DNA from: Geodermatophilus sabuli
GTDB taxonomy: Bacteria > Actinomycetota > Actinomycetes > Mycobacteriales > Geodermatophilaceae
NCBI RefSeq assembly: GCF_010686765.1
Contig: NZ_JAAGWF010000010.1
Coordinates: forward strand, 248,001 to 312,000
DNA length: 64,000 bases
Reading direction: 5' to 3'
Shown here: positions 22,896 to 44,991 of the stretch, piece after piece
Numbering within the stretch: the stretch's first letter is position 1
How the letters are laid out: every line of letters begins with the position of its first letter
The notes under the pieces: generated by a model
Seen by the model: only the letters and a program-made list of their open reading frames with translations
What the model was told of the DNA's origin: nothing
The model's database searches: none
Program-made: the position numbers and the translations under genes

Positions 22896-22916
22896 CACTT
22901 CCCCCCGGTGGAAGCC
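22896..22916. promoter_or_regulatory. Putative IclR operator O1
   Basis: CACTTCC, 7 nt, GGAAGCC: an inverted repeat with core CTTCC/GGAAG at the spacing shared by the other sites in this region. It lies in the divergent region between the CGSC operon and an IclR gene. Binding by IclR is inferred from position and symmetry. Confidence 0.5.
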
Positions 22917-22946
22917 CGAGGTCACGGCGCCGCGCCTGGAGCGTGC

Positions 22947-22976
22947 TTGACACCGAGTGCCACAGCGCCGCAGAGT
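22947..22976 (+). promoter_or_regulatory. Promoter of IclR gene 1
   Basis: A perfect -35 TTGACA (22947-22952), an 18-nt spacer and CAGAGT (22971-22976), followed by GACCCGG. The second IclR gene has the same arrangement at 39892-39920, which supports this call. Confidence 0.5.
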
Positions 22977-23038
22977 GACCCGGCCCACCACAACGGTGTA
23001 CTTCCCAACCACCTGGGCGCGCCGAGGAGAGGACGTAG

Positions 23039-23893
23039 ATGGGAGCGACGGAACCGTTGACCGCAGCCGCCACCGAGAGCCGGACGAGCAGGATCCCCAC
23101 CGGCGGTGCGGCCACCGCGGCCGGCCGGGTGCTCGCCGTCCTCTCCGCCTTCGGGCCCGCGCACCCCTCGCTGACGCTCAGCGAGATCAGCCGCCGCTCG
23201 GGTCTGACCCTCACGACCACCCATCGTCTGGTGGGCGAGCTGCGGCAGTGGGGCGGCCTGGAGCGCGCCCCCGACGGCCGGTACGCGATCGGGCTGCGGC
23301 TGCTGGAGCTCGGCGCCCTCGCCCCGCACGGCCTGCAGCTGCGCGAGCTGGCGCTGCCCTACCTCGACGACCTCCACCAGGCCACCCGCGCGAACGTGCA
23401 CCTCGCTGTGCGGGACGGCTCCGACGGCGTCTACGTCGAGGCGCTGCGCGCCCGGGGTGCGGTCCAGGTGCTCAGCCGGCTGGGCGGGCGCTGGCCGCTG
23501 CACGCCACGGGCACCGGTCAGGTGCTGCTGGCCTTCGCCGACCGTGACGTGCAGGACGAGCTGCTGTCGACCCCGCTCAAGCGGTTCACCGCCGACACGA
23601 TCACCTCCATCGGCGAGCTGCGGCGGGTGCTGGCCGAGGTGCGGCGCACCGGGGTGGCCATCGCCGAGAACCAGCTGACGCCCGACGCGCTGGCCGTCGC
23701 CGTCCCGGTGCGGGGCCAGCGCGACGAGGTGGTCGCGGCCCTCGGCGTGACCGTGCAGCGCGGCGTGGTGCAGAGCCACGCGCTGGTGCCGGCGCTGGCC
23801 GCCACCGCGCGCGGCATCTCGCGGGCCCTGGGCGCGCCCTCGGCGAAGCCCGAGACCAGCAGCGCCCTCCGGAGTTCCTGCGCTCCCCGCTGA
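23039..23893 (+). CDS. IclR-family transcriptional regulator 1
   Basis: A 284-residue regulator: winged helix-turn-helix near residues 25-85 (LTLSEISRRSGLTLTTTHRL), then the IclR effector-binding domain (LPYLDDLHQATRANVHLAVRDG, GRWPLHATGTGQVLLAF, IAENQLTPDALAVAVPV). IclR proteins bind small aromatic or organic acids and control catabolic operons. It is a close paralogue of the protein at 39983-40825, sharing nearly identical HTH and effector blocks. It is divergent from CGSC operon 1, whose shared upstream region has a palindrome repeated elsewhere in the region. Start ATG 23039 follows a clear Shine-Dalgarno. Confidence 0.92.
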   Translation: MGATEPLTAAATESRTSRIPTGGAATAAGRVLAVLSAFGPAHPSLTLSEISRRSGLTLTTTHRLVGELRQWGGLERAPDGRYAIGLRLLELGALAPHGLQLRELALPYLDDLHQATRANVHLAVRDGSDGVYVEALRARGAVQVLSRLGGRWPLHATGTGQVLLAFADRDVQDELLSTPLKRFTADTITSIGELRRVLAEVRRTGVAIAENQLTPDALAVAVPVRGQRDEVVAALGVTVQRGVVQSHALVPALAATARGISRALGAPSAKPETSSALRSSCAPR

Positions 23894-23915
23894 GCCCGCT
23901 CGCCCGGCGCGGACG

Positions 23916-23958
23916 ACAGAGGCCGCCGGCCCCCTCGCGGGGAGCCGGCGGCCTCTGT
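23916..23958. terminator. Bidirectional hairpin between IclR 1 and the alcohol dehydrogenase
   Basis: A perfect 15-bp stem ACAGAGGCCGCCGGC (23916-23930) paired with 23944-23958, with a further CCCC/GGGG pairing in the loop. It lies between convergent genes. Confidence 0.65.
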
Positions 23959-23961
23959 TCC

Positions 23962-23991
23962 GGCCGGCCCCGTCCCGGGACGGGGCCGGCC
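23962..23991. repeat. Perfect 30-nt dyad
   Basis: Two 15-nt arms with no loop; the left arm is GGCCGGCCCCGTCCC. Immediately follows the terminator hairpin and probably adds to termination between the convergent genes. Confidence 0.5.
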
Positions 23992-23994
23992 CCC

Positions 23995-24042: not shown

Positions 24043-25161
24043 CTAGTCGTGGATGATCACGCCACGGATGTTCTTGCCGTCCGCGAGGTCCTTATAGGCC
24101 TCGTTGACCTGGTCGAGCGAGTACTTCCGGGTGACCAGCTCGTCGAGCTTGAGCTGGCCGGCCCGGTAGAGACCGAGCAGCCGGGGGACGTCGTAGAGCG
24201 GGTTGCAGTCGCCGAAGAGCGCGCCCCGCACCTGGCGCTGGTAGCCGATGAGCGCGCCGGCGTGGAAGTGCGCGGCCTTCTCGGTCAGCTTGCCGACGCC
24301 GGTGATGGTGACCTTGCCGCCCTTGCCGGTCATCTGGAGCGCCGAGTTGACCATCTCCTCGGTCACCACACCGGGCGTGAGGATGGCGTGGTCGGCCAGC
24401 TGGCCCCACGTCGTCTCGACGACGAACTCGTGCGCCTCCTTGGCCGTCGCGAAGGTGTGCGTCGCGCCGAACACGGTGGCCATCTCGCGCTTGAACTCGA
24501 CCGGGTCGACGACGACGACGTTCTTCGCGCCGGCGTACTTGGCGCCCTGGACGGCGTTGCTGCCGACCCCACCGGACCCGAAGACCACCACGGTGTCACC
24601 GGCGCGGACGCCCGCGGCGTAGACCGCCGAACCCCAGCCGGTCGGGACGCCGCACCCGACGAGGCAGGCGACCTCCCACGGGATGTCGTCGGCCAGCGGG
24701 ATGGCGGCCCACTCGGAGATCACCGCGTACTGCGAGAAGGAGCCCACGGTGCAGAAGCCGCCGAGGTCCTCGTCGCCGAGGTGGAACCGGAACGTGCCGT
24801 CGAGGAACATGCCGGTGCCGGCGTTGAGCCCCTTGACGCACATGTTCTGGTGCCCGGTCGAACACGGCCGGCAGGCTCCGCACGCGGGGATGTAGGAGCA
24901 GACGACCCGGTCACCGGGCTTGACCCGGGTGACGTTCGGGCCGACCGACTCGACGATCCCGGCGCCCTCGTGGCCGCCCACCACGGGCATGCGCACCGGC
25001 GCGTCGCCCTGGGTGATGTGGTCGTCGGAGTGGCACAGCCCGGATGCCGCGAACTTGACGCGGACCTCGTGCTCCTTGGGGTCGTCGAGCTGGAGGTCGA
25101 CCATCTCCCAGCCCCGGTGCGCCGCACGGGCGATGGCCGCCCTCGTCGTGATGGTGCTCAT
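24043..25161 (-). CDS. NDMA-dependent-type zinc alcohol dehydrogenase 1
   Basis: A 372-residue medium-chain zinc dehydrogenase of the actinobacterial NDMA-dependent methanol/alcohol dehydrogenase type, with tightly bound nicotinamide cofactor. Catalytic zinc ligands lie in GLCHSDDH and GGHEGAGIV, structural zinc cysteines in CGACRPCSTGHQNMC, and the cofactor loop is GSGGVGSNAVQG. Starts at ATG 25161, 10 bp after the aldehyde dehydrogenase stop. It ends with IRGVIIHD, as does its paralogue at 26663. The two share long stretches of near-identical DNA. Probable role: primary alcohol to aldehyde, passed to the neighbouring aldehyde dehydrogenase. Confidence 0.9.
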   Translation of the reverse strand: MSTITTRAAIARAAHRGWEMVDLQLDDPKEHEVRVKFAASGLCHSDDHITQGDAPVRMPVVGGHEGAGIVESVGPNVTRVKPGDRVVCSYIPACGACRPCSTGHQNMCVKGLNAGTGMFLDGTFRFHLGDEDLGGFCTVGSFSQYAVISEWAAIPLADDIPWEVACLVGCGVPTGWGSAVYAAGVRAGDTVVVFGSGGVGSNAVQGAKYAGAKNVVVVDPVEFKREMATVFGATHTFATAKEAHEFVVETTWGQLADHAILTPGVVTEEMVNSALQMTGKGGKVTITGVGKLTEKAAHFHAGALIGYQRQVRGALFGDCNPLYDVPRLLGLYRAGQLKLDELVTRKYSLDQVNEAYKDLADGKNIRGVIIHD

Positions 25162-25171
25162 GCGATCCCTC

Positions 25172-26650
25172 TCAGTTGCCGGTGCCACGGAGGGACACGG
25201 TCTTGACCTGCGTGTAGTCCAGGACGGCGTCCGCACCCATGGACCGGCCGAAGCCACTGCGCTTGTAGCCGCCGAAGGGGCCACCGATGACGCCGGCGCC
25301 GAGGGCCGCGTTGACCGCCACCTGGCCGGCCTGCAGCCCGCGGGCGAACTTCACGGCCTTGCCGACGTCGCGGGTCCAGACGGAGGCGACCAGGCCGTAG
25401 TCGGTGCCGTTGGCGACCTGGAGGGCCTGCTCGTCGTCGTCCACCGGGGTGACGCCGAGGACGGGGCCGAAGATCTCCTCCTGGTGGATCCGCATCGCCG
25501 GGTCGACGTTGTCGAACAGGGTGGGCTCGACGAAGAAGCCGCGCTCGAACTGGTCGCCGGCCGGGCGCCCGCCGCCGAGGACGAGGTCGGCGCCCTCCTC
25601 CTGGCCGAGCTGCATGTACTTGAGCACCCGCTCCTGCTGCTTGGCGTTGATCAGGGGGCCCATGTTGACCTGCTCGTGCCAGGGGCCGACCTTGACCTGC
25701 GACATGTGCTCGGCCAGCCGCTGCACGACCTCGGACTGGATCGAGCGGGCGACCACGACCCGCGAGCCGGCCGCGCAGATCTGGCCGGTGTTGAGCGTGA
25801 TGCCGCGGGCGATCGCCGGGATCGCGGCGTCGAGGTCGGCGTCGGCCAGGATCACCTGCGGCGACTTGCCCCCGAGCTCCAGGTGGAGCGGGGTGAGGTT
25901 CTTGGCGCAGGCGGCCATGATCAGCTCGCCGGTCTGCGGGGAGCCGGTGAAGCTGATCCGGCGGATCCGCGGGTGCGCCGGGATCGCGGCGCCGGCCTCG
26001 TGCCCGTAGCCGGTCACGACGTTGACCACGCCCGGCGGGATGCCGGCCTCGAGCGCCAGCTTGGCCAGCGCCAGCCCGGTCAGCGGAGCGTCCTCGGCCG
26101 GCTTGATCACGATGGTGTTGCCGGCCGCGATCGCCGGGCCCACGTCGGTGACGAACATCGGGCCGGGTGCGTTCCAGGGGATGATCGCGCCGACGACGCC
26201 GTAGGGCTCGCGGAGGGTCAGCCCGAGGGCGTCCGGGGTGTAGGTCGGCAGGGAGAGGCCCTGGACCTTGTCCGCCTGCCCGGCCGTGAACCGGAGCTGC
26301 CCGGCCATCGGCGGCGGCCCCCAGTGCGGGCGGCCGACCTCGCGGGACTCCAGGGCGTCCAGCTCGGTGATGTTCTCCTCGATCAGCGCGGCCCAGCGGA
26401 ACAGCAGCGCGGCGCGGGCGGTGGCGTTGGTGTCCCGCCAGGCCGGGAAGGCGGCCTCGGCGGCCCGGACGGCGGCCTCGACGTCGGCGGCGGTGCCGCG
26501 GGGCACCCGGGCGAGCAGCTCGCCGGTGGCCGGGTTGATGACCTCGAGGGTCTGGCCGGAGGCGGCGGGGACCCAGTCGCCGCCGATGAGCTGGGCGTTG
26601 TCGATGATCAGGGAGGTGCCGGCCTGCGGGCCGGGAGGGGCGATCGTCAT
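25172..26650 (-). CDS. NAD(P)-dependent aldehyde dehydrogenase
   Basis: Oxidises an aldehyde to the acid. A 492-residue ALDH-superfamily enzyme with the cofactor motif FTGSPQTGELIM, general-base Glu in LELGGKSP (near residue 265), nucleophile Cys in NTGQICAAGSR (near 300) and the EEIFGPVLGV motif. Normal family length, no deletion. It lies between the two zinc alcohol dehydrogenase genes on the minus strand, with gaps of 10 and 12 bp, so ADH2-ALDH-ADH1 form a three-gene operon. The physiological aldehyde is unknown. Confidence 0.93.
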   Translation of the reverse strand: MTIAPPGPQAGTSLIIDNAQLIGGDWVPAASGQTLEVINPATGELLARVPRGTAADVEAAVRAAEAAFPAWRDTNATARAALLFRWAALIEENITELDALESREVGRPHWGPPPMAGQLRFTAGQADKVQGLSLPTYTPDALGLTLREPYGVVGAIIPWNAPGPMFVTDVGPAIAAGNTIVIKPAEDAPLTGLALAKLALEAGIPPGVVNVVTGYGHEAGAAIPAHPRIRRISFTGSPQTGELIMAACAKNLTPLHLELGGKSPQVILADADLDAAIPAIARGITLNTGQICAAGSRVVVARSIQSEVVQRLAEHMSQVKVGPWHEQVNMGPLINAKQQERVLKYMQLGQEEGADLVLGGGRPAGDQFERGFFVEPTLFDNVDPAMRIHQEEIFGPVLGVTPVDDDEQALQVANGTDYGLVASVWTRDVGKAVKFARGLQAGQVAVNAALGAGVIGGPFGGYKRSGFGRSMGADAVLDYTQVKTVSLRGTGN

Positions 26651-26662: not shown

Positions 26663-27772
26663 TCAGTGCTCGTGGATGATCACGCCGCGGATGTTCTTGC
26701 CATCCAGCATGTCCTGGTAGCCCTGGTTGACCTCTTCGAGCTTGTACGTCCGGGTCACCAGCTCGTCGAGCTTGAGCTTCCCGGAGCGGTAGAGGCTCAG
26801 CAGGCGCGGGACGTCGTGCAGCGGGTTGCAGCCACCGAAGATGCCGCCCTGGATGCGGCGCTGGTAGCCGATGAACACGCCGGGGTGCTCGTCGACCCAG
26901 CCGTTGCCGACGGCGGTGACCGAGACCTGACCGGTCTTGCCCACGACCTGGAGGGCGTCGGCGATGACCTCGTCGTGGAGGATGCCGACGGTGATGATGG
27001 CGTGGTCGGCCAGCTCGCCCCACGTCGACTCGACGACGAAGTCGTGGGCCTCCTTGGCGGTGGCGAACGTGTGCGTCGCGCCGAAGACGGTGGCCATCTC
27101 CCGCTTGAACTCGACCGGGTCGACGACGACGACCCGCTCGGCACCGGCCAGGGCCGCGCCCTGGACGGCGTTGCTGCCGACGCCGCCGGCGCCGTAGACG
27201 ACCACGGTGTCACCGGCCTTGACGCCGGCGAGGTGCACCGCGCTCCCCCAACCGGTGGGCACGCCGCACCCGACGAGGCAGGCGACCTCCCACGGGATGT
27301 CCTCGGGGATCTGGATGACCGAGTACTCGCTGACGACCGCGTACTGGGAGAAGGTGCCCAGCACGCAGAGGCCACCGAAGTCCTCGCCGTCCTGGTGGAA
27401 GCGGAAGGTGCCGTCGGGGAAGATCCCGGTCGAGGCGTTCTTGCCCTCGTCGCAGAGGTTCTGCCGGCCGGTGGAGCAGTAGCGGCACTTGCCGCAGGCG
27501 GGGATGAAGGAGCAGACGACGTGGTCGCCGACCTTCACCCGCGTGACGCCCTCGCCGACGGCGTCGACGATCCCGGCACCCTCGTGCCCGCCGACCACGG
27601 GCATCCGCATCATCGCGTCGCCCTTCTGGATGTGGTCGTCGGAGTGGCACATCCCGGCCGCCATGAACTTGATGCGGACCTCGTTGGCCTTCGGGTCGTC
27701 GAGCTCGAGCTCGGTGATCTCCCACGGCCGACCCGGCTCGCGGCAGACCGCGGCGCGCGTGGTCATGCTCAT
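26663..27772 (-). CDS. NDMA-dependent-type zinc alcohol dehydrogenase 2
   Basis: A 369-residue paralogue of the enzyme at 24043-25161: catalytic zinc motifs GMCHSDDH and GGHEGAGIV, structural zinc cysteines CGKCRYCSTGRQNLC, cofactor loop GAGGVGSNAVQG, and end IRGVIIHEH. The proteins differ mainly in the substrate-side region (residues 230-300), so specificities probably differ. First gene of the ADH-ALDH-ADH operon, starting at ATG 27772 opposite the CoA-transferase operon. Its promoter region contains two TTCC-7-GGAA palindromes. Confidence 0.9.
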   Translation of the reverse strand: MSMTTRAAVCREPGRPWEITELELDDPKANEVRIKFMAAGMCHSDDHIQKGDAMMRMPVVGGHEGAGIVDAVGEGVTRVKVGDHVVCSFIPACGKCRYCSTGRQNLCDEGKNASTGIFPDGTFRFHQDGEDFGGLCVLGTFSQYAVVSEYSVIQIPEDIPWEVACLVGCGVPTGWGSAVHLAGVKAGDTVVVYGAGGVGSNAVQGAALAGAERVVVVDPVEFKREMATVFGATHTFATAKEAHDFVVESTWGELADHAIITVGILHDEVIADALQVVGKTGQVSVTAVGNGWVDEHPGVFIGYQRRIQGGIFGGCNPLHDVPRLLSLYRSGKLKLDELVTRTYKLEEVNQGYQDMLDGKNIRGVIIHEH

Positions 27773-27917: not shown

Positions 27918-27938
27918 GTCTTCCCCATCACGGAAGAC
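27918..27938. promoter_or_regulatory. Putative IclR operator O2 (perfect)
   Basis: GTCTTCC, 7 nt, GGAAGAC: a perfect inverted repeat, the best match to the shared pattern and therefore the likely consensus. Confidence 0.55.
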
Positions 27939-27981: not shown

Positions 27982-28002
27982 CCTTTCCGGGACGTGGAAG
28001 GG
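27982..28002. promoter_or_regulatory. Putative IclR operator O3
   Basis: CCTTTCC, 7 nt, GGAAGGG: six of seven positions are symmetric, with the same core and spacing as O2. It lies 174 bp upstream of the CoA-transferase start. Confidence 0.5.
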
Positions 28003-28175: not shown

Positions 28176-28937
28176 GTGATCGACAAGTTCCGATCGGACG
28201 TCCTGTCCGTCGTCGACGCCGTGCCGTCGGGGGCGTCCATCGCCGTCGGTGGCTTCGGCAGCTCGGGCCGGCCCGACGCGCTGATCGACGCGCTGTGCGA
28301 GCTGGACCGTCGCGACCTGCACGTGTACGTCAACAACGTCGGGCACGACTTCACCGGCGTCGGCCGACTGCTGCACGAGGGGCGGCTGCGCCGGGTGACG
28401 GCGTCCTTCCCGATCCTGCAGGAGTTCTACGACGAGTACTTCGCCGGGAGGGTCGAGCTGGAGCTGATCCCGCAGGGCACCCTCGCCGAGCGGATGCGGG
28501 CCGGCGGCGCCGGCATCCCCGCCTTCTTCACCCCCTCCGGCGCCGGGACGATGCTCTCCGACGGTTCCTTCACGCTGCGCTACTCCCCCGAGGGCGGCGT
28601 CGCCGAGCACGTGCCGGCCAAGGAGACCCGGATGATCAACGGCCGGGAGTACGTGCTGGAGGAGGGCATCGTCGCCGACTTCGGCTTCGTGAAGGCGCAC
28701 AAGGCCGACCGCAAGGGCAACCTGCGGTTCCGCCTCTCCGCGCGGAACTTCAACCCGATGGCCGGCATGTCCGGCCGCACCACCTTCGCCGAGATCGAGC
28801 AGCTGGTCGACGTCGACGAGCTGCACCCCGACGACGTCCACCTGCCCGGCGTCTTCGTGGACGACCTGGTGATGTCCACGGGCAAGGCGCCCGCGACCGA
28901 CGAGCCCGCGGCCGCGGCCACGAGGAAGGCCTCCTGA
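28176..28937 (+). CDS. CoA-transferase subunit A
   Basis: Subunit A of a 3-oxoacid CoA-transferase-type (family I) enzyme, which moves CoA from a donor thioester to a carboxylic acid. The 253 residues include the glycine loop IAVGGFGSSGRPDALI (a variant of the usual GGFGxxG-P motif), TPSGAGTML, and EEGIVADFGFVKAHKADRKGNL. The Ser/Arg-rich loop differs from typical succinyl-CoA transferases, so substrate preference may differ. The GTG at 28176 follows GGAGG by seven bases. Its stop overlaps the start of subunit B by one base (TGATG). Confidence 0.9.
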   Translation: MIDKFRSDVLSVVDAVPSGASIAVGGFGSSGRPDALIDALCELDRRDLHVYVNNVGHDFTGVGRLLHEGRLRRVTASFPILQEFYDEYFAGRVELELIPQGTLAERMRAGGAGIPAFFTPSGAGTMLSDGSFTLRYSPEGGVAEHVPAKETRMINGREYVLEEGIVADFGFVKAHKADRKGNLRFRLSARNFNPMAGMSGRTTFAEIEQLVDVDELHPDDVHLPGVFVDDLVMSTGKAPATDEPAAAATRKAS

Positions 28938-29608
28938 TGACCGACACCATCCCCGCGCCCGCGCCCGTCACCGGCCGGACCCGGGAGGGCATCGCCGAAC
29001 GGCTCGCCCAGGACCTGCAGGACGGCTACGTCGTCAACCTCGGGGTCGGCATCCCGCTGCTGGTCCCCCGCTTCCTCCCGGCGGACAAGGAGGTCGTCCT
29101 GCACGCGGAGAACGGCGTCCTGGGCATCGGCGGCGACGCCGACCCGCACGAGGCGGACCCCGACCTCACCGACGCCGGCAAGCAGCCGATCACCCTGATC
29201 CCCGGCGCGGCGATCACCGACTCGGCGCTCTCCTTCGCGATCATCCGCGGCGGCCACCTCGACGCCACGATCCTCGGCGCGCTGCAGGTCTCGGCGTCGG
29301 GTGACCTGGCCAACTGGTACGTCCCCGGCAAGAACCCCGCCGTCGGCGGCGCCATGGACCTGGTCGCCGGCACCCCGCAGGTGTGGGTCGCCATGGAGCA
29401 CGTGGACCGCAAGGGCCGGCCCAAGATCGTGGCCGAGTGCACGATGCCGCTGACCGGCAAGGGCGTGGTCACCCGCGTCTACACCGACCTGGCGGTCTTC
29501 CACGTCGTCGACGGCCAGCTGCGACTGGTCGAGTGCGCTCCCGGCGTCACCCCCGAGGACGTCCGCGCCCGCACCGGCGCGCCCTACACCGAGCACCTGG
29601 CCGGCTGA
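28937..29608 (+). CDS. CoA-transferase subunit B
   Basis: The 223-residue catalytic subunit. The glutamate expected to form the glutamyl-CoA intermediate lies in LHAENGVLGIGG (the SENGxxG motif, here with Ala). Also visible are ITDSALSFAIIRGGHLD, GKNPAVGGAMDLV and ECTMPLTGKGVV. It starts at ATG 28937 inside the subunit A stop, so the two are made together. With A it likely activates an acid formed by the neighbouring aldehyde dehydrogenase; that link is inferred from position. Confidence 0.92.
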   Translation: MTDTIPAPAPVTGRTREGIAERLAQDLQDGYVVNLGVGIPLLVPRFLPADKEVVLHAENGVLGIGGDADPHEADPDLTDAGKQPITLIPGAAITDSALSFAIIRGGHLDATILGALQVSASGDLANWYVPGKNPAVGGAMDLVAGTPQVWVAMEHVDRKGRPKIVAECTMPLTGKGVVTRVYTDLAVFHVVDGQLRLVECAPGVTPEDVRARTGAPYTEHLAG

Positions 29609-33797: not shown

Positions 33798-34895
33798 TCA
33801 GGCCGCCGACTCCCCCGGGACCGCACCGGGGGCCAGCGTGGCGCCGCCGGTCATCTTCGGCACCTCGGGCATCGGCAGGTCGAGGGGGAAGTGGCAGGCC
33901 ACCCGGTGGCCGGGCTGGTGCTCCACCAGCGCGGGAGCCTCCTCGGCGCACTTGATCTGCGCCCGGGGGCAGCGGGTGCGGAAGCGGCACCCGCTGGGCG
34001 GCTCGATCGGCGACGGCGGCTCGCCGGGCAGGGCCACCGGGCGGTGCGCCTTGCCGGTGAGCGGGTCCACCCGCGGGATGGAGTCCAGCAGGGCCGACGT
34101 GTACGGGTGCAGCGGCGACCGGTACATGGCCTCGGACGGGCCGATCTCGGCCAGCTGGCCGAGGTACATGACGGCCACCCGGTCGCTGACCTGCTTGACC
34201 ATCGCCAGGTCGTGCGCGATGAACAGGTAGGACAGGTTCATCTCCCGGCGCAGCTTCTCGAACAGGTTGAGCACCTGCGCCTGGATCAGCACGTCCAGGG
34301 AGGACACCGCCTCGTCGGCGACGATGAGGGCCGGCTCCAGCGCGATCGCGCGGGCGATCGCCACCCGCTGGCACTGGCCACCGGAGAGCTCGAACGGCCG
34401 CCGCTTGGCGTACTGGGACGGGTCCAGACCGACGAGGTCCAGCAGCTCCTCGACCCGCCGCCGGCGGGAGGTGGTGGTACCCCACCCATGGCCGACCAGC
34501 GGCTCCTCGACGACCTCGGTCACCCGCCAGCGCGGGTTCAGCGAGCCGAAGGGGTCCTGGTAGACCATCTGCATCTGCCGACGGGACTCCTTGAGCTCGC
34601 GGCGGCCCAGCGTCATGAGGTCCTTGCCCTGGAACTCCACGACGCCGGACTTCGGCCGGGGCAGCTGGATCACCGACCGCGCCAGCGTCGACTTGCCCGA
34701 CCCGGTCTCCCCCACCACGCCCAGCGTCTCCCCGGGGTAGATGTCGAAGGAGACGTCGGACACGGCGTGGACGACGCCGCCCTTGACGCCGCCGGCGGCA
34801 CGGACGGGGAACTCCTGGACGAGGTTGCGGGCGCTCAGCAGCGGGGTGCGCGAGTCCGCGCGGTCACCCGCCGGACGTTCCTCGACCGCGGTCAT
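33798..34895 (-). CDS. Oligopeptide-type ABC transporter ATP-binding protein (OppF/DppF-like)
   Basis: A 365-residue ATPase with Walker A GETGSGKSTL, Q-loop MVYQDPFGSLNPR, signature LSGGQCQRVAIARA, Walker B LIVADEAVSSLD, and the Opp/Dpp C-terminal zinc-like block CRFRTRCPRAQIKCAEE. Note the ADEAVSSLD variant. ATG 34895 overlaps the stop of the D subunit by 4 bp. It is the last gene of the SBP-B-C-D-F operon and powers uptake of an oligopeptide-like or other organic substrate. Confidence 0.93.
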   Translation of the reverse strand: MTAVEERPAGDRADSRTPLLSARNLVQEFPVRAAGGVKGGVVHAVSDVSFDIYPGETLGVVGETGSGKSTLARSVIQLPRPKSGVVEFQGKDLMTLGRRELKESRRQMQMVYQDPFGSLNPRWRVTEVVEEPLVGHGWGTTTSRRRRVEELLDLVGLDPSQYAKRRPFELSGGQCQRVAIARAIALEPALIVADEAVSSLDVLIQAQVLNLFEKLRREMNLSYLFIAHDLAMVKQVSDRVAVMYLGQLAEIGPSEAMYRSPLHPYTSALLDSIPRVDPLTGKAHRPVALPGEPPSPIEPPSGCRFRTRCPRAQIKCAEEAPALVEHQPGHRVACHFPLDLPMPEVPKMTGGATLAPGAVPGESAA

Positions 34896-36106
34896 CGCTG
34901 CTCTCCGTTCGGGGTGTGGTGGCGGCCGGGGCCGGCCGCCTCGTCCGGGCCGTCGGCCAGGCCGGGGTCGTCGGCCGCCACCGCCGGGTCGAGCGGGCCG
35001 GTGCCGGCCCGCGGGCCGGGGTCGTTGCCCAGACCGGAGCCGACGGGGTGCCAGCACGCCCACCAGTGCTCGGGCTCGTGCTCGGTCAGCGGCGGGTCGT
35101 CGAGGCACTTGTCGGTGGCGTTGGGACACCGCGGCCGGAAGGGACACCCCTTGGGAAGGGCCGACAGGTCCGGCGGCTGCCCCGGGGTGACCTCGAACAG
35201 CGAGTGCGGCTCCCGGTCGAGCGCGGGGATGGCACCCAGCAGGGCGTGGGTGTACGGCATCCGGACGTTGGCGAACAGCGTCCCGGTGGGGGCGTGCTCC
35301 ACGGCCCGGCCGGCGTACATGACGACGACGTCCTGCGCGTAGCTGGCCGCCAGCCCCAGGTCGTGGCTGATCATGATGACCGCCATGCCCAGTCGCTGCT
35401 GCAGCTCGACCAGCAGCTCCATGATCTGGGCCTGGGTCGTGACGTCCAGCGCCGTCGTGGCCTCGTCGGCGATCAGCAGCCGCGGCTCGCCGGCGAGCGC
35501 GATGGCGATCATGACCCGCTGGCGCATGCCGCCCGACAGCTGGTGCGGGTACTCGTGGAAGCGGCGCTCGGCGGCGGGCAGCCGGACCAGCTTCAGCAGC
35601 TCGACCGCCCGGGCGTGCGCGCCCTTCTTGTCGAGGTCGCTGTGCAGCTTGACCGCCTCGGTGATCTGCGCACCGATCTTCATGGTCGGGTTGAGCGAGC
35701 GGGCCGGGTCCTGGAACACCATCGCGATGTCGCCACCGCGCAGGGCCCGCATGTCCCGCTCGGGCATCCCGATGAGCTCGCGGCCCTCGAAGCGCACCGA
35801 GCCGGTGATCTTCGCCGTCGGGGGCAGCAGGCCCATCAGCGCCCGGGAGCTCACGCTCTTGCCCGACCCGGACTCGCCGATGATCGCCATCATCGAGCCG
35901 GGGGTCAGCTCGTAGGAGAGCCCGTTGACCGCGTTGATCTTCCGGCCGCCGCGGGTGAACTGGACCCGGAGGTCCTCCACCACCAGCAGGGGCTCGCCGG
36001 GCTGCGCCGCGGAGGCCCGCGACGGCTTCCCGAGCGAGACCGGGTCGATCACGCCCTCGGACACCCCGCTGTCGCCGGAGGCATAGGTCGCCGTTCGCTT
36101 GCTCAT
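34892..36106 (-). CDS. Oligopeptide-type ABC transporter ATP-binding protein (OppD/DppD-like)
   Basis: A 404-residue ATPase: Walker A GESGSGKSV, signature LSGGMRQRVMIAIAL, Walker B LLIADEATTALD, and C-terminal FRPRCPNATDKCLDD. Walker A ends in Ser-Val rather than Ser-Thr, as in many OppD proteins. An acidic, Pro/Asp/Gly-rich tail of about 45 residues follows the family end. ATG 36106 overlaps the OppC-like stop by 4 bp. Works with the F subunit to drive the permease. Confidence 0.93.
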   Translation of the reverse strand: MSKRTATYASGDSGVSEGVIDPVSLGKPSRASAAQPGEPLLVVEDLRVQFTRGGRKINAVNGLSYELTPGSMMAIIGESGSGKSVSSRALMGLLPPTAKITGSVRFEGRELIGMPERDMRALRGGDIAMVFQDPARSLNPTMKIGAQITEAVKLHSDLDKKGAHARAVELLKLVRLPAAERRFHEYPHQLSGGMRQRVMIAIALAGEPRLLIADEATTALDVTTQAQIMELLVELQQRLGMAVIMISHDLGLAASYAQDVVVMYAGRAVEHAPTGTLFANVRMPYTHALLGAIPALDREPHSLFEVTPGQPPDLSALPKGCPFRPRCPNATDKCLDDPPLTEHEPEHWWACWHPVGSGLGNDPGPRAGTGPLDPAVAADDPGLADGPDEAAGPGRHHTPNGEQR

Positions 36107-36999
36107 CGACCACTCCAACGTGCACGCAGGTTCTCGCCCAGCAGGTTGAAGGCGAGGACGGTGACCAGCAGGGCCACGCTGGGCCAGACGACGAGCATCG
36201 GGGTCGCCGAGAGGCTCAGCTGGCCGGTGGCCACCATGTTGCCCCAGCTGGGGGCCGGGTCGGGGATGCCCAGGCCCAGGAAGCTGAGGGCGCCCTCGAT
36301 GATGATCACGATGCCCATCCCCAGCATGCCGAAGGTGATCAGCTGCGGGGCGATGTTGGGCGCCAGGTGCTTGAACAGCATCCGGCGCGCCGTCGTCCCG
36401 GACAGCTGCGCGGCCGCCATGAACGGCATCTCCCGCAGGCGGAGCACCGCCGAGCGGGCGACCCGGGCGAAGGCCGGGATGCTGAAGAAGGCCAGCGCGA
36501 AGATCGTGTTCGTCATGCTCGGGCCGAGCGCCTGCGCCACCGCGAGGGTGAGCACCAGCGACGGGAAGGCGATCAGCACGTCGAGGAGCCGCATGATGAT
36601 CGTGTCGGCGATCCCGCCGACGTAGCCCGACAGCGCACCCAGCGTGCCGCCGATCGCCAGGCCGATGAGGTTGACCGCCACCGCGATCCACAGCGAGGAC
36701 CGCCCGCCGTTGAGCAGCCGCGACAGGATGTCGTTGCCGTTGGGGTCGGTGCCCAGGATGTGGCCCGGGGAGAGGGCCGGCTGGTTGCTCTCCAGGATGT
36801 TGCCGCCCACCGGGCTGGGCAGGGAGAGCAGCGTCGGGCCCAGGAAGCAGGCGACGAGCACGAAGAGGATCAGGCCGGCGGGGATCCAGGTGCCGAGGTT
36901 GTTGCGCCAGCGGCCACGGCCGCGGCCGCCGGCCTTGGCCTCGGCCTGGTCGATCTCCGGGCCCAGGGAGAACGACGGGGCCGGCTCAACTACTGCCAT
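36103..36999 (-). CDS. Oligopeptide-type ABC transporter permease (OppC/DppC-like)
   Basis: A 298-residue inner-membrane permease with six predicted helices, the N-terminal extension typical of OppC (about 45 residues before the first helix), and the conserved loop region MPFMAAAQLSGTTARRMLFK followed by GALSFLGLGIPDP. ATG 36999 is chosen because GAGG lies seven bases upstream; a TTG six codons earlier has no better site. Overlaps the B gene stop by 14 bp. Confidence 0.92.
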   Translation of the reverse strand: MAVVEPAPSFSLGPEIDQAEAKAGGRGRGRWRNNLGTWIPAGLILFVLVACFLGPTLLSLPSPVGGNILESNQPALSPGHILGTDPNGNDILSRLLNGGRSSLWIAVAVNLIGLAIGGTLGALSGYVGGIADTIIMRLLDVLIAFPSLVLTLAVAQALGPSMTNTIFALAFFSIPAFARVARSAVLRLREMPFMAAAQLSGTTARRMLFKHLAPNIAPQLITFGMLGMGIVIIIEGALSFLGLGIPDPAPSWGNMVATGQLSLSATPMLVVWPSVALLVTVLAFNLLGENLRARWSGR

Positions 37000-38026
37000 A
37001 TCGGATCCTCGGGTCAAGGACGGCGTACAGGAGGTCGACGATCAGGTTCGCCAGCACCGCGACCAGCGCGAAGATGACGACCGCCGCCTGCACGACGACG
37101 AAGTCTCGGGTGTTGATGGCCTGGAGCAGCATCTGACCGATGCCCGGCAGCGCGAAGATCTGCTCGATGATCACGGTGCCACCGATCAGCGCGCCCAGGT
37201 TCAGGCCGACGATGGTGATCAGGCCGAAGGACGAGTTCCGGAACGCGTGCTTGATCAGCACCGACCAGGACCCCACCCCCTTGGCGCGCGCCGTGGTGAC
37301 GTACTCCTCCTGCTGCATCTGGTCCACCAGGTCGCCGCGGAGGAACCGGGTGTAGAAGCAGAACAGCGGGAGCCCGATCGCGGCGGACGGCAGGATCATC
37401 GACCGCAGGTTGGGCCACAGCCCGTCCTCGAGCGGGACGAAGCCGATGGCCGGGAGCCAGCCGAGGGTCACGGCGAACACCAGGACGAGCAGCAGGGCCA
37501 GCACGTAGTTGGCCACCGACAGCCCCAGGGTGCTGACGACCATGCTGATCCGGTCCATGACGCCGTCCGGCTTGTGCGCCGCCAGCAGCGCCACCGGGAT
37601 GGCCAGGACGAGCGAGACGACGAACGCCAGGAGCACGATCTCGCCGGTCACCGGCAGCCGCTGGGACAGGATCTCGCTGACCGGCTGGCGGCTCACGATC
37701 GACTGGCCCAGGTCACCGGTGACGGCGCCCTGCAGCCACTCCAGGTAGCGGACCACACCGGGCTTGTCGAGGCCCAGCTGCTGCTCGAGCAGCGCGATGT
37801 CCTCGGGGGTGGCCTCCGGGCCCAGCAGCTGCTGGGCGGCGTTGCCCGGGATGAGGCTGAGCACCCAGAACGTCAGGACCGTGACGCCCAGCATGATCGG
37901 GATGGCCATCAGCAGCCGCTTGACGACCAGCCGGAGGACCGGTGAACCGGTCACGCGCCCGACGCGGGAGGCCCGCGGGCCCCGGCTGTCAGCCGGGACC
38001 CGCGGGGTCGTGGCGGTAGCGGTCAC
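36986..38026 (-). CDS. Oligopeptide-type ABC transporter permease (OppB/DppB-like)
   Basis: A 346-residue permease. After a basic Pro/Arg-rich N-terminal stretch of about 30 residues come six membrane helices, with the loop RGDLVDQMQQEEYVTTARAKG and the end GGTVIIEQIFALPGIGQMLLQAI, typical of OppB. The GTG at 38026 overlaps the binding-protein stop by 4 bp, so the receptor and permease are translationally coupled. Confidence 0.92.
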   Translation of the reverse strand: MTATATTPRVPADSRGPRASRVGRVTGSPVLRLVVKRLLMAIPIMLGVTVLTFWVLSLIPGNAAQQLLGPEATPEDIALLEQQLGLDKPGVVRYLEWLQGAVTGDLGQSIVSRQPVSEILSQRLPVTGEIVLLAFVVSLVLAIPVALLAAHKPDGVMDRISMVVSTLGLSVANYVLALLLVLVFAVTLGWLPAIGFVPLEDGLWPNLRSMILPSAAIGLPLFCFYTRFLRGDLVDQMQQEEYVTTARAKGVGSWSVLIKHAFRNSSFGLITIVGLNLGALIGGTVIIEQIFALPGIGQMLLQAINTRDFVVVQAAVVIFALVAVLANLIVDLLYAVLDPRIRYGSS

Positions 38027-39639
38027 TGCTCCCGCCAGACCTCGTCCCAGATGACCCCGGCGTTGACCAGGATCGGCGGGATCTTGGTGGTGAGACCCGG
38101 ACCGTGGACACCGACGGCGGCGATGTTCGCCGGCGCGAAGGCCAGACCGAACGGCGCGTAGAAGTTCTCCGCGATCAGCTCGGCGGCCTGTCGGTACAGG
38201 TCGGCCCGCTGCTGCTCGTCGAGCGTCGCCGAGGCGTCGCTCAGGAGCTGGTCCAGCGTCGGGTCGGCGACGCCGCTGTACGGGACGCCGGAGTTGAAGC
38301 GGAAGCCGACGCCGACACCGGCCGCCGGGTCCCAGGCGCCCGCGGTCTGCAGCATGGCCTGCCACTGACCACCGGTGAACTCCTGGATGACACCGGAGAG
38401 CTGGTAGTCCGCGATCTCGACGTCGATGCCGGCCTCCTGCCACTGCGTCTGCAGGGCGGTGTTGATCTGCGTCGCGACGTAGTTGCTGATCGTGCCGAGC
38501 CGGACGGTGAGGCCGCCGAGCTCCTGCACCAGCTCCTTGGCGCGGTCGAGGTCGAACTCCGGGTACCCCTCGACGGTCTCCTCGTAGAACAGACCGCCGG
38601 GGCCGGTGAAGCCCTGGCTCACGTCGTAGTTGCCACCGAAGATGCCCTCGTTGATCGCGTCGAAGTCGGTCGCCCGGTAGATCGCCTCACGGGCGCGGAC
38701 GTCGTCGAACGGTGCGATCTTCGTGTTCAGCTGGACCACGTACGGGGACGTCGCCGGCTGGATGGTCACCTGCAGCTGGTCGTTGGCCTGGGCCTGCTCC
38801 AGCAGCGGGGTGGTGTTGAGGCCCTCGTAGGCCTGCGCCTGACCGGCCTGCAGCGCCTGGTAGGCCGGCTGGTCGCCACCGATCGACTGGAAGGTGAGCC
38901 GGTCCAGGTAGGGCTGGCCCTCCTTGAAGTAGCTCTCGTTGCGCTCGAGTTCGAGCGCCGAGCTGAGCTGGTTCTCGACGACCGTGAACGGACCGGCGCC
39001 GACCGGGGTGATCTTGAAGGCGTCCTCACCCTGGGCCTCGAGGGCCGCCGGGGAGGCGATCCAGTTGACGTTCGCGGCCGGGAAGGAGGCCAGGACCGCC
39101 GGGTAGGGCCGGGTGAAGGAGAGCTGGATGGTCAGCGGGTCGATCACCTGGATGCCACCCTCGGCCAGCGGCCAGGTGGGCTTGCAGGTGCAGGGGTTGG
39201 CGAGGTCGCGCTCCCAGTTGAACCGGACGGCCTCGGCGTCCAGCGGCGTGCCGTCGCTGAACTCGATGCCCTCACGCAGCTTGACGGTGAAGGTGAGCCC
39301 GTCCTCGGAGAACTCGTAGCTCTCCGCCTGGTTGCCCGTGACCTCGGCGTTGCTGCCGTCCTCGTCGGCGGTCAGCAGGAAGAGCCCGCCGAAGATCGCC
39401 TGCATCATCGCGATGTTGGAGCCACCGGTGGTGTTGGTGGCCGGGTCGAGGCCGGCCGGCCAGCTGCCGGCGAAGGCGGCGTCCTCGAGGACGGTCAGCT
39501 CGCCGCCCTGCTGCGGCTCGCCCGCCGGGGCGCCGGATCCGGAGGCGGAGCCCCCGGTGCCGCTGTCGCTTCCACCGCCGCAGGCTGTCAACGCCAGCGC
39601 TGCTGCGGTGAGGAGGGACAGGATCGTCCGTTGCTTCAT
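38023..39639 (-). CDS. ABC transporter substrate-binding lipoprotein (family 5), copy 1
   Basis: A 538-residue extracellular receptor of the oligopeptide/nickel SBP family 5. A lipoprotein signal peptide ends at the lipobox LTAC with Cys20, followed by a Gly/Ser-rich linker. The mature part shows FTVKLREGIEFSDGTPLDAE and the usual EWREQ-type C-terminal region. It is the first gene of the transporter operon, with ATG 39639 after AAGGGGAG. The protein at 43256 is a close paralogue. The substrate is unknown: family 5 binds peptides, but also sugars, metals or opines. Confidence 0.93.
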   Translation of the reverse strand: MKQRTILSLLTAAALALTACGGGSDSGTGGSASGSGAPAGEPQQGGELTVLEDAAFAGSWPAGLDPATNTTGGSNIAMMQAIFGGLFLLTADEDGSNAEVTGNQAESYEFSEDGLTFTVKLREGIEFSDGTPLDAEAVRFNWERDLANPCTCKPTWPLAEGGIQVIDPLTIQLSFTRPYPAVLASFPAANVNWIASPAALEAQGEDAFKITPVGAGPFTVVENQLSSALELERNESYFKEGQPYLDRLTFQSIGGDQPAYQALQAGQAQAYEGLNTTPLLEQAQANDQLQVTIQPATSPYVVQLNTKIAPFDDVRAREAIYRATDFDAINEGIFGGNYDVSQGFTGPGGLFYEETVEGYPEFDLDRAKELVQELGGLTVRLGTISNYVATQINTALQTQWQEAGIDVEIADYQLSGVIQEFTGGQWQAMLQTAGAWDPAAGVGVGFRFNSGVPYSGVADPTLDQLLSDASATLDEQQRADLYRQAAELIAENFYAPFGLAFAPANIAAVGVHGPGLTTKIPPILVNAGVIWDEVWREQ

Positions 39640-39740: not shown

Positions 39741-39754
39741 GTGATGGCGGTCAC
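39741..39754. promoter_or_regulatory. CRP-like site upstream of SBP 1
   Basis: GTGATGGCGGTCAC: half-sites GTGA and TCAC, 6 nt apart, matching the CRP/GlxR core. It is about 100 bp upstream of SBP 1; SBP 2 has an equivalent at 44914-44927. Suggests control by carbon supply; the regulator is not in the window. Confidence 0.5.
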
Positions 39755-39800: not shown

Positions 39801-39821
39801 CGCTTCCCTCCCGCGGAAGAC
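39801..39821. promoter_or_regulatory. Putative IclR operator O4
   Basis: CGCTTCC, 7 nt, GGAAGAC; the symmetric core is CTTCC/GGAAG. It is followed by AAGTTCG, as is O5. Confidence 0.5.
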
Positions 39822-39891
39822 AAGTTCGTCCCTGCGGGGACCGGACCGGCCGGTCGGCGACCCGGGCCGGCCCCGGCTCGCAGCGGCCGGT

Positions 39892-39982: not shown

Positions 39983-40825
39983 GTGACGACGACGCGACCA
40001 CTGGTCCCGGGGGCCGGCTCCCCCGCGGCGGGAGCGCCGTCGAGCCGGGTGCCGGTCACCGCCACGGCGGCCGGCCGGGTGCTGGCCGTCCTGGACGCGT
40101 TCGGCCCCAGCCATGCCGCGCTGACCCTCAGCGAGATCAGCCGCCGCTCCGGCCTGTCGCTCACGACCACGCACCGCCTGGTCGGCGAGCTGCGCGCCTG
40201 GGGAGCCCTGGAACGCAGCCCGGACGGGCGCTACGGGATCGGTCTGCGACTGCTGGAGCTGGGCGCCCTCGCCCCGCACGGGCTGCAGCTGCGCGAGGTC
40301 GCCGTCCCCTACGTCGACGACCTGCACCAGGCCACCCGGGCCAACGTCGTGGTGGGCGTGCGCGACGGCTCGGACGTCGTGTACGTGGAGGCCCTGCGGG
40401 CCCGCACCGCCGTGAAGCTGATGAGCCGGATCGGTGGCCGGTGGCCGCTGCACGTCACGGGCACGGGCCTGGTCCTGCTCGCGTACGCGTCGCCGGAGGT
40501 GCAGGAGGAGGTGCTCAGCGGGCCGCTGGAGCGGTTCACGCCGCAGACGGTCACCGATCCCGCGGTGCTGCGGCGCACGCTGGCGGAGGTCCGCCGCACC
40601 GGCGTGGGCATCGCGGAGAACCAGCTGACCGCGGAGGCCCCGGCACTCGCCGTCGCCGTCCCGGTGCGGGGGGCCGGTGACGAGGTCGTCGCCGCGCTCG
40701 GGGTCACCGTGGAGCGCGGCACGGTCCAGGCCCAGGCGCTGATCCCGGCGCTCAACGCGACCGCGCGGGGCATCTCCCGCGCACTGGGCGCGCCGTCGGC
40801 CCAGCCACCTCGCCGCCGGACCTGA
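39983..40825 (+). CDS. IclR-family transcriptional regulator 2
   Basis: A 280-residue paralogue of the regulator at 23039-23893. HTH with LTLSEISRRSGLSLTTTHRL, effector domain with VPYVDDLHQATRANVVVGVRDG, GRWPLHVTGTGLVLLAY, and IAENQLT-APALAVAVPVRG. The recognition-helix sequences of the two differ by only one or two residues (GLTLTTTH, GLSLTTTH), so both should bind the same operator. Effector-binding residues differ more, so they may sense different compounds. GTG 39983 follows GGAGG. Divergent from SBP 1. Confidence 0.92.
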   Translation: MTTTRPLVPGAGSPAAGAPSSRVPVTATAAGRVLAVLDAFGPSHAALTLSEISRRSGLSLTTTHRLVGELRAWGALERSPDGRYGIGLRLLELGALAPHGLQLREVAVPYVDDLHQATRANVVVGVRDGSDVVYVEALRARTAVKLMSRIGGRWPLHVTGTGLVLLAYASPEVQEEVLSGPLERFTPQTVTDPAVLRRTLAEVRRTGVGIAENQLTAEAPALAVAVPVRGAGDEVVAALGVTVERGTVQAQALIPALNATARGISRALGAPSAQPPRRRT

Positions 40826-40866: not shown

Positions 40867-40878
40867 GTCACGGCAGGG

Positions 40879-43004: not shown

Positions 43005-43204
43005 TACGGACCTCTTCTCGTCTCGAGCCGGGGACGGCGCGTGCCGCCCGCCCGGCCGTGGGCGGCGTGACGCCGATCGCGCACCGCCCCTGTGCCCCCG
43101 GTCACGCTAGGTCGCCCGGTGCAGGGCCACCACGCGCCTTCCGTCCGGCGGACGGGCCCGCGGGGTCGGCCGCGGGTGGGAGCCGGCGCGGCCCGGGCAC
43201 GCCA

Positions 43205-43243
43205 CGGCCCCGCGGTCCCGGACGAGCCGGGACCGCGGGGCCG
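43205..43243 (-). terminator. Strong hairpin after SBP 2
   Basis: A 17-bp perfect stem with a 5-nt loop (arms 43205-43221 and 43227-43243; the outer arm begins CGGCCCCGCGGTCCCGG). It is 13 bp downstream of the SBP 2 stop. No U-tract. Confidence 0.75.
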
Positions 43244-43255
43244 CGGGTGGAGAGG

Positions 43256-44872
43256 TCAGCCCTGCTCGCGCCAGACCTCGTCCCAGATGACGCCGGTGTT
43301 GACCAGGATCGGCGGGATCATGGTGGTCAGACCGGGACCGTGCACCCCCTGGGCGGCGAGGTTGGCCGGTGCGAAGGCCAGACCGAACGGCGCGTAGAAG
43401 TTCTCCGCGATGTGCTGCGACGCCTGCTCGTAGAGGTCGGCGCGCTGGTCCTCGTCCAGGGTGCCGGCCGCGTCGGTCAGCAGCTGGTCGAGCTCCGGGT
43501 CGGAGATGCCGCTGAACGGCGACGTGGACGCGAAGCGGAACGCCACGCCGACACCGGCGGCCGGGTCCCAGGCGCCGGCGGTCTGCAGCATCGCCTGCCA
43601 GGTGCCACCGGTGAACTCCTGGATGAGGGTGGACAGCTGGTAGTCCTCGATCGTCACGTCGATGCCCGCCTCCTGCCACTGGGTCTGCAGCGCCGTGTTG
43701 ACCTGGGTGGCCACGTAGGCGCCGAGCGTGCCCAGCTTCACCTGCAGGCCGCCGAGCTCCTCGACGAGCTGCCGCGCCCGCTCCGGGTCGTACTCCGGGT
43801 AGCCCTCGACGTCCTCCATGTAGAAGAGCCCGCCCGGCCCGGTGAAGGACTGGCTGACCGGGTACTCGCCGCCGAACAGGCCCTCGGCGATGGCGTCGAA
43901 GTCGGTCGCCGCGTAGATGGCCTCACGGGCCCGCGGGTCGTCGAACGGCGCCGCCCGGGTGTTGAGCTGGATGACGTAGGGCGACGTCGCCGGCTGCACG
44001 GTCACCTGCAGCTGGTCGTTGGACTGGGCCTGCTCCAGCAGCGGGGTGGTGCTCAGGCCCTCGTAGGCCTGCGCCTGACCGGCCTGCAGCGCCTGGTAGG
44101 CCGGCTGGTCGCCACCGATCGACTGGAAGGTGAGCCGGTCCAGGTAGGGCAGGCCCTCCTCGAAGTAGTTCTCGTTGCGCTCGAGCACCAGCGTGGAGCT
44201 GAGCTGGTTCTCGACGACCGTGAACGGACCGGCGCCGACCGGGGTGATCTTGAACGACTCCTCGCCCTGCTGCTGCAGCGCGGTCGGCGAGGCGATCCAG
44301 TTGACGTTGCTGGCCGGGAACGACGCCAGCACCGAGGCGTTCGGTGCGGTGAAGTTGAGCCGGATCGTCAGCGGGTCGAGCACCTCGATGGCCGGGTCGG
44401 CCAGCTGCCAGGTCGGCTTGCAGGTGCAGGGCGAGGCCAGGGCCCGCTCCCAGTTGAACCGCACCGCCTCGGCGTCCATCGGGGTGCCGTCGGAGAACTG
44501 GATGCCGTCGCGCAGCGTGACGGTGAAGCTCAGGCCGTCCTCGGCGATCTCGAAGCTCTCGGCCTGGTTGGGCTCGATGCGGGCGTTGGAGCCGTCGTCG
44601 TCGGCCCGGAGGAGGAACAGCCCGCCGAAGATGGCTTGCTGCATGGAGATGTTCGCCCCGCCGGTGGTGTTGGTCGCCGGGTCGAGGCCGGTGGGCCAGC
44701 TGCCGGCGAAGGCGGCGTCCTCGAGCACCGTCACCTCACCGCCGCGCTGCGGTTCCCCCGCGTCGGTCTGAGCGGCTCCGGTACCGCTGTCTCCTCCGTC
44801 GTCGCCGCCGCCGCAGGCCGTGAGGGCCAGGGCGGTGGCGAGGAGGAGGGACGGGATCGTCCTCTTCGTCAT
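43256..44872 (-). CDS. ABC transporter substrate-binding lipoprotein (family 5), copy 2, without its own permease
   Basis: A 538-residue paralogue of SBP 1, exactly the same length. Lipobox LTAC with Cys20 after a 19-residue signal peptide. It shares long identical stretches with copy 1, including a 96-nt identical DNA block. It stands alone: a strong terminator follows and no permease or ATPase is next to it, so it probably feeds the transporter encoded at 33798-38026 and widens its substrate range. ATG 44872 follows AAGGGGAG. It lies behind a CRP-like site and operator O5. Confidence 0.92.
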   Translation of the reverse strand: MTKRTIPSLLLATALALTACGGGDDGGDSGTGAAQTDAGEPQRGGEVTVLEDAAFAGSWPTGLDPATNTTGGANISMQQAIFGGLFLLRADDDGSNARIEPNQAESFEIAEDGLSFTVTLRDGIQFSDGTPMDAEAVRFNWERALASPCTCKPTWQLADPAIEVLDPLTIRLNFTAPNASVLASFPASNVNWIASPTALQQQGEESFKITPVGAGPFTVVENQLSSTLVLERNENYFEEGLPYLDRLTFQSIGGDQPAYQALQAGQAQAYEGLSTTPLLEQAQSNDQLQVTVQPATSPYVIQLNTRAAPFDDPRAREAIYAATDFDAIAEGLFGGEYPVSQSFTGPGGLFYMEDVEGYPEYDPERARQLVEELGGLQVKLGTLGAYVATQVNTALQTQWQEAGIDVTIEDYQLSTLIQEFTGGTWQAMLQTAGAWDPAAGVGVAFRFASTSPFSGISDPELDQLLTDAAGTLDEDQRADLYEQASQHIAENFYAPFGLAFAPANLAAQGVHGPGLTTMIPPILVNTGVIWDEVWREQG

Positions 44873-44913
44873 GTGGGTGCTCCCCTTGCTGGGATCGCGG
44901 GATCGGCCTGCGC

Positions 44914-44927
44914 GTGATGCAGGTCAC
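44914..44927. promoter_or_regulatory. CRP-like site upstream of SBP 2
   Basis: GTGATGCAGGTCAC: GTGA and TCAC half-sites with 6 nt between. It lies 42-55 nt upstream of the SBP 2 start, nearly the same distance from operator O5 as its counterpart is from O4 (43 and 46 nt). Confidence 0.5.
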
Positions 44928-44970
44928 TGCGCGCGTCAACGTCCACCGGCGGGCGCGACCATCGTGAGAT

Positions 44971-44991
44971 GTCTTCCGCCTCACGGGAGAC
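44971..44991. promoter_or_regulatory. Putative IclR operator O5
   Basis: GTCTTCC, 7 nt, GGGAGAC: symmetric in six of seven positions. It is between SBP 2 and the divergent nitroreductase gene and is followed by AAGTTCG as in O4. Confidence 0.5.

Follow-up and report, generated by a model that had tools for sequence, protein, structure and literature searches.

According to a comparative survey of the IclR family of regulators (Suvorova and Gelfand 2021, PMC8222616), from which all statements below on known IclR-family sites are taken, group-1 operators follow the consensus WTTYCRYW3RYGRAAW, with a WTT-11-AAW subgroup, and the majority of sites in the family lie at -20 to -80. The same survey gives the motif ATTCC-N7(5)-GGAAT for GenR, the 3-hydroxybenzoate/gentisate regulator of Corynebacterium glutamicum, and lists three-box sites, as in PcaU, PobR and HmgR, for 32 orthologous groups. 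In this study, a palindrome of the form TTCC-N7-GGAA was investigated in an island of uncharacterised genes from Geodermatophilus sabuli. The window, i.e. the whole stretch of DNA analysed, comprises 64 kb (bases 248001-312000 of contig C87, 74% guanine plus cytosine (GC)) of a 4.79 Mb genome. Comparative sequence analysis suggests that the palindrome very likely serves IclR1 and IclR2, the IclR-family regulators encoded in the island, as their operator, through which the island's divergent operons would be switched; this reading is supported because the site recurs at corresponding promoters in orthologous islands and accompanies the IclR clade. The regulon so delineated is new, the operator type itself is already known, and the regular pairing of IclR-type with CRP-like sites is the interesting part.

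Group-1-like sites between divergent genes

Four exact copies of TTCC-N7-GGAA were found in the window, where 0.18 are expected, and none of 100 shuffled sequences reached four. S1 (22899..22913) lies between iclR1 on the plus strand and ugsc1 on the minus strand, the latter being our own label for the gene at 21068..22735. S2 (27921..27935) and S3 (27985..27999) form a tandem, 64 bp apart, between adh1 (-) and cotA (+), and S4 (39804..39828), which lies between sbp1 (-) and iclR2 (+), joins an exact core (39804-39818) to an inverted third half-site (GGAAGACAAGTTCG). S5 (44974..44998), located between sbp2 (-) and a nitroreductase-family gene (+), likewise carries a third half-site, and its core (44974-44988, TTCCGCCTCACGGGA) has one mismatch. 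An earlier, sequence-only reading of this DNA had proposed five sites with one core and one spacing; the 7-nt spacing was found in all five and the exact core in four, with GGGA replacing GGAA at S5. Its statements that all sites lie between divergently read genes and that a perfect palindrome, GTCTTCC-N7-GGAAGAC, spans 27918-27938 at S2 were borne out, the latter being the sole perfect 7+7 copy in the genome.

As calculated from the coordinates, the centres of S1-S5 precede the nearest predicted start codon by approximately 106-184 bp, a greater distance than for most IclR-family sites. On the iclR1 side, a TTGACA sequence conserved in three species stands about 41 bp away from the S1 centre, so that S1 is clear of this candidate -35 box. 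Together, these distances favour activation or dual control rather than simple steric repression, and prove neither.

The sites resemble group-1 operators in the order and spacing of their half-sites (TTYC-N7-GRAA, exact in S1-S4), in their placement in promoters of dehydrogenase, coenzyme A (CoA)-transferase and ATP-binding cassette (ABC)-transporter genes, and in the conservation upstream of the regulator and regulated operons that phylogenetic footprinting revealed. They differ in a G/C-rich centre in place of W3, with C or G in 69 of the 84 central cells of 28 exact sites, and in tandem spacings of 58-74 bp compared with the usual 18-22. In the RY-W3-RY element, the right inner RY was present in 25 and 28 of 28 sites but the left R in only 12, and the sites are therefore termed group-1-like only. 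GenR, compared by motif, has the same core and spacing but other pathway genes, and the outer bases are here mostly C and G. The sequence-only reading had pointed to Escherichia coli IclR as a precedent. This regulator belongs to the same protein family and has the letters TTCC and GGAA in its half-sites, but the listed site TGGAAATNATTTCCA has them in the opposite order, and group-1 sites and GenR are the better precedents.

Conservation of the sites and the two regulators

Orthologous islands are present in close relatives, namely G. sabuli (genome G022), G. ruber (G019) and Geodermatophilus sp. TF02-6 (G015), and within the Geodermatophilaceae, orthologous islands from two genera have sites at the same promoters. 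A screen of all 256 four-base half-sites at 16 spacings (4,096 combinations) in 31 regions (10,585 bases) ranked TTCC-N7-GGAA first with 25 copies, followed by CTTC-N9-GAAG, which overlaps it (15), and by the next independent combination, GTGA-N6-TCAC (12). The adh1/cotA class contained 17 sites in 9/11 regions and the iclR1/ugsc1 class 9 exact sites in 9/11 regions, against shuffle means of 0.02 and 0.04, respectively. For these class counts, a 48-bp stub from G116 was removed, the iclR2 region of TF02-6 was moved from the iclR1 to the sbp1 class, and two further TF02-6 regions were added; URHA0031 (L099) and G120 are apparently one genome, and G120 alone was counted. Loci from Metallococcus (L105) and from G055, G040 and G048, in which the orthologous gene pairs were not found, stand outside the region counts.

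In the aligned intergenic DNA of three species, S1, S2 and S3 are kept while parts of the flanks diverge. S1 is retained in G. sabuli as well as G. ruber, and G115, G120 and G119 from genus g6 have it at the iclR position; the IclR genes of Microbacterium album and M. elymi likewise have a site upstream. Paired cores in tandem occur in 8/8 regions with an intact adh1/cotA pair, among them the island itself and those of G015, G115, G119, G120 and G133, at spacings of 58, 62, 62, 63, 64, 66, 67 and 74 bp. A ninth adh1/cotA region, from G116, in which cotA but no adh1 was detected, has one site. No site was found in the adh1 regions of M. elymi and Phytoactinopolyspora, where adh1 lies beside sdrA and cotA was not found.

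As a control, 500 bp upstream of 30 adh loci were searched. Two sites each were found for the island adh1 genes (4/4) and none for the island adh2 genes (0/4), and the best adh1 matches in island-free genomes of the genus had a site in 1/22 cases. This lone exception (L152, contig C48 of G001) carries the exact upstream site TTCCCCTGGGTGGAA. Among 30 IclR loci, an exact site within 500 bp upstream was present in 3/4 members of the clade and 4/26 more distant homologs; for the gene itself and the 500 bp downstream of it, the count was 0/30. The IclR regulon put forward in the sequence-only reading is supported by the sites kept at orthologous promoters and by their scarcity at the island-free adh1 relatives.

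In the proposed mechanism, dimers of IclR1 and IclR2 would bind TTCC-N7-GGAA and switch the adh1-aldh-adh2 genes for oxidation, cotAB for CoA activation, ugsc1/iclR1, and the sbp1/ABC-transporter and sbp2 genes for uptake, presumably following a pathway metabolite. The enzyme promoters would be governed by symmetric two-box sites, with the tandem pair at adh1/cotA, and the transporter promoters by a degenerate site, to which a third inverted half-site is often added, approximately 60 bp from a CRP-like site through which uptake is probably gated by cyclic AMP or carbon status as well. An island of uncharacterised genes would in this way become a defined regulon with a testable operator, in which two mycofactocin-type alcohol dehydrogenases, a CoA-transferase and two solute-binding proteins are tied to one signal.

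Both regulators, IclR1 (23039..23893, plus strand, 284 aa) and IclR2 (39983..40825, plus strand, 280 aa), contain an N-terminal HTH_IclR (PF09339) and a C-terminal IclR_C domain (PF01614) above cut-off and share 74% identity. Their scores of 141.1 and 135.3 bits against the PcaR/PcaU/PobR subfamily model (TIGR02431) stay below its cut-off of 284.75, although this is still the best NCBIfam match. The recognition helices, already described as almost the same in the sequence-only reading, differ in a single residue, T to S, and in a tree the two proteins fall into one clade, in separate subclades.

Two separate circuits with little cross-binding, in which IclR1 acts on the symmetric S1-S3 and IclR2 on the degenerate three-box sites S4-S5, would fit the different architecture of S4/S5, the position of each regulator gene next to one site class and the separate subclades of the paralogs. 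This arrangement is nevertheless considered unlikely, as the recognition helices are only one residue apart and both site classes occur in genomes with a single regulator of the clade. TF02-6 has an iclR2-type gene only (its three IclR matches are 80, 51 and 47% identical) and, without iclR1, keeps two adh1/cotA sites of the S2 and S3 types, an S1-type site upstream of ugsc1 and a variant of S4. Among genomes of genus g6 in which the clade is represented by one IclR, G115, G120, G119 and G133 have the adh1/cotA pair of sites, and 3/4 of these an exact site upstream of iclR; G119 and G133 combine exact enzyme sites with sbp1 sites that have one core mismatch. The retention of several operator classes in single-IclR genomes supports one shared control circuit, as the sequence-only reading had proposed: one regulator probably serves all these operators, and in the genome studied here both paralogs may do so. 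A regulator that is duplicated in some species and single in others is a natural experiment on operator sharing by paralogs. The iclR1-position operator of TF02-6 (L167:10872), upstream of ugsc1 in the absence of iclR1, may reflect either loss of the regulator with the site kept or a state before the regulator's arrival.

Transporter promoters and a CRP-like element

The sites at the solute-binding protein genes are less uniform than the sequence-only reading had assumed, since S5 and most orthologous transporter sites are degenerate variants, often with a third half-site, and are accompanied by a CRP-like site. In ten sbp promoters (seven sbp1 and three sbp2), the core was one mismatch off in eight. 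All seven sbp1 promoters contain TTYC-N7-GGRA, with a third box in 4/7, and the S5 orthologs in G. sabuli and G. ruber read TTGC-N7-GGAAGACA. In S4 and S5, a group-1 pair is joined to a third inverted half-site (GAA-N6-TTC), a putative three-box operator in which the added box would give the arrangement of group 2. They differ from the described sites, in which the group-2 pair is TGRAACA-N1-2-TGTTYCA, in that the third half-site, continuing the right half as G(A/G)A-N6-TTC, is found in 7/10 sbp promoters; it is changed or absent in sbp1 of G. ruber, in G119 and in G133.

A second palindrome, GTGA-N6-TCAC, lies 59-63 bp from the core in 10/10 sbp promoters. In the window, it is represented by GTGATGGCGGTCAC (39741..39754) in the sbp1 promoter, 63 bp from S4 and kept in 7/7 sbp1 promoters, and by GTGATGCAGGTCAC (44914..44927) in the sbp2 promoter, 60 bp from S5 and kept in 3/3 sbp2 promoters. 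With 0.66 copies expected in the window, and two or more in 15 of 100 shuffles, the two observed are within chance; the case for a CRP-like site is made by its conservation. The regulator-gene promoters of G119 and G133 contain a CRP-like site as well, at 65-66 bp. PMC7999487 and PMC12713383 report TGTGA-N6-TCACA as the site of GlxR and mycobacterial Crp; the sbp promoters share its inner core, but the outer T/A are not conserved and the near-constant 59-63 bp to an IclR-type site is a further difference. The genome also encodes, on contig C115, a Crp homolog whose helix reads ASRETVNKALADF. Short half-sites like GTGA/TCAC may also be used by other families. That GTGA-N6-TCAC belongs to a GntR-type or other regulator instead of CRP would agree with this and with the chance-level copy number in the window, but appears doubtful in view of the reported GlxR/Crp site and the RETV helix of the encoded Crp homolog.

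Pairs of core and CRP-like site within 400 bp of each other, in both directions, fall at 32-35, 41, 59-67 and 192-193 bp in 169 overlapping sequences (1.14 Mb, an island-enriched and not a random sample). As a tentative extension, somewhat short of an even chance in our estimate, an IclR operator and a CRP-like site at fixed distance could form a recurrent composite cis-module in these actinobacteria, through which an IclR activator and Crp would jointly gate uptake by an inducer and a carbon-status signal; the distances considered are approximately 62 bp at sbp promoters and approximately 34 bp at certain others that appear to be catabolic. The near-constant pairing, if functional, would show specific and global control combined in a little-studied family. 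A search limited to an open-access collection turned up nothing about this island and no IclR/CRP composite from these genera. On contig C31 of the same genome (L086), an IclR-type palindrome (core at C31:178921) has GTGA-N6-TCAC on both sides, each approximately 34 bp off, and lies upstream of an open reading frame that by eye resembles a dioxygenase reductase; pairs at 32-35 bp were likewise seen in L091 and L081. In a Micromonosporaceae metagenome-assembled genome (L103:17327), a CRP-like site and TTTC-N7-GGAA are located 65 bp apart beside an adh1 ortholog.

Genome-wide distribution of the core and genes of the island

Genome-wide, exact TTCC-N7-GGAA occurs at 24 places compared with 3 for a reversed control, and when the 24 copies were placed at random 20,000 times, four sites fell within 16.9 kb in 32 cases. 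The scan for CTTCC-N7-GGAAG that had been recommended in the sequence-only reading yielded six exact matches, three of them inside the window, and 138 places versus 75 in the control within one mismatch; with two mismatches, 37 places in the window versus 23 expected indicate that loose versions of the motif are little informative. The 7+7 motif with up to three mismatches (634 places versus 258 in the control) was rejected as too loose for defining a regulon. The sequence GGAAGACAANTTCG is specific, being found in 3/26 genomes of the genus, all three island-bearing. Its exact form was not found in G. ruber, though the island is present there, and within one mismatch it has two further copies in its own genome outside the island.

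Several observations weigh against an operator dedicated to the island's regulators. The core is not specific to the island, as 20 further exact copies are shared with other places in the genome, so that equal matches elsewhere, named at the outset as a sign against the regulon, do in part exist; by a codon-usage score, nine of these copies appear non-coding, two clearly coding and nine undecided. Exact cores also occur inside genes of related islands, for example the amidohydrolase gene (L118:865, L120:675 and L123:15332), and the exact core is present in only 2/10 sbp promoters (2/7 for sbp1 and 0/3 for sbp2). The Phytoactinopolyspora island (L101, 20.7 kb, IclR 65% identical) lacks an exact site. 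G133 has only a one-mismatch form in front of its IclR gene, and it and Phytoactinopolyspora are the two iclR1/ugsc1 regions that do not contain the exact core; G116, left out of the class count as a stub, has none there either. In addition, the limits of the regions followed gene ends and were drawn once the first sites were known, and the islands of Geodermatophilus come from close relatives, so the region counts are no independent trials. Helical phasing of the tandem sites was considered as well, and the spread of 58-74 bp gives no support for strict phasing.

The further copies would be explained if the palindrome served a different transcription factor, encoded elsewhere, as operator, with the IclR genes as mere neighbours, and only 1/20 of them, C60:68553, which precedes another IclR-type gene by approximately 200 bp, has one of the 45 HTH_IclR matches within 1 kb. 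This explanation is nonetheless very improbable: the site goes together with the IclR clade across several genera, is found upstream of 4/26 distant IclR homologs versus 0/26 inside the gene or downstream, and fits the published group-1 sites in order and spacing (PMC8222616). An origin by chance or from the base composition of a genome with 74% GC can practically be dismissed: the small number of fixed bases (eight), the 24 genome copies and the mild enrichment of the two-mismatch form (37 versus 23) could be cited in its favour, but the window, spacing, placement, no-island and shuffle controls and the conservation within diverged intergenic DNA are all contrary to it.

The genes of the island are arranged in the divergent pairs iclR1/ugsc1, adh1/cotAB, sbp1 plus ABC transporter/iclR2, and sbp2/nitroreductase-family gene. 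The adh1 (26663..27772) and adh2 genes (24043..25245, start approximate), both on the minus strand, encode NDMA-dependent (mycofactocin-type) alcohol dehydrogenases (TIGR03989, 527.1 and 510.6 bits, cut-off 440). Between them lies an aldehyde dehydrogenase gene (25172..26650, minus strand), with a best E of 1.5e-134 among the NCBIfam aldehyde-dehydrogenase models, under the equivalog cut-off. NDMA-dependent alcohol dehydrogenases are linked to mycofactocin, and the mycofactocin radical SAM enzyme encoded in the genome, above cut-off, fits their presence in the island. On the plus strand, cotA (28176..28937) and cotB (28934..29608) encode subunits A and B of a 3-oxoacid CoA-transferase (TIGR02429, 240.4 bits; TIGR02428, 281.9 bits). 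An oligopeptide-type ABC transporter with two ATPases and two permeases (33798..38443, starts approximate, minus strand; PF00005, PF08352 and PF00528) adjoins sbp1 (38023..39638, minus strand), which like sbp2 (43256..44872, minus strand) encodes a family 5 solute-binding protein (PF00496, 228.3 and 236.6 bits, respectively). The nitroreductase-family gene (45087..45695, plus strand) matches PF00881 with 101 bits. This gene content suggests as substrate an imported compound with an alcohol group that is oxidised to an acid and then CoA-linked.

The genes at 21068-22735 (ugsc1) and 32014-33705 (ugsc2) encode related proteins, the first of which matches the orthologs of the second at 52-57% identity. 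One or both are present in most islands read, ugsc1 has orthologs in the islands, and a CGSC-like motif was seen in translation. Neither protein has a Pfam or NCBIfam match, and the first also has no match in the PDB; assignment to the UGSC family based on the CGSC motif was thus unsupported by Pfam and NCBIfam for both proteins and by the PDB for the first. In Microbacterium elymi (L104), adh1, aldh, sdrA, iclR and the amidohydrolase gene each match in two pieces, suggesting frameshifts or sequencing errors.

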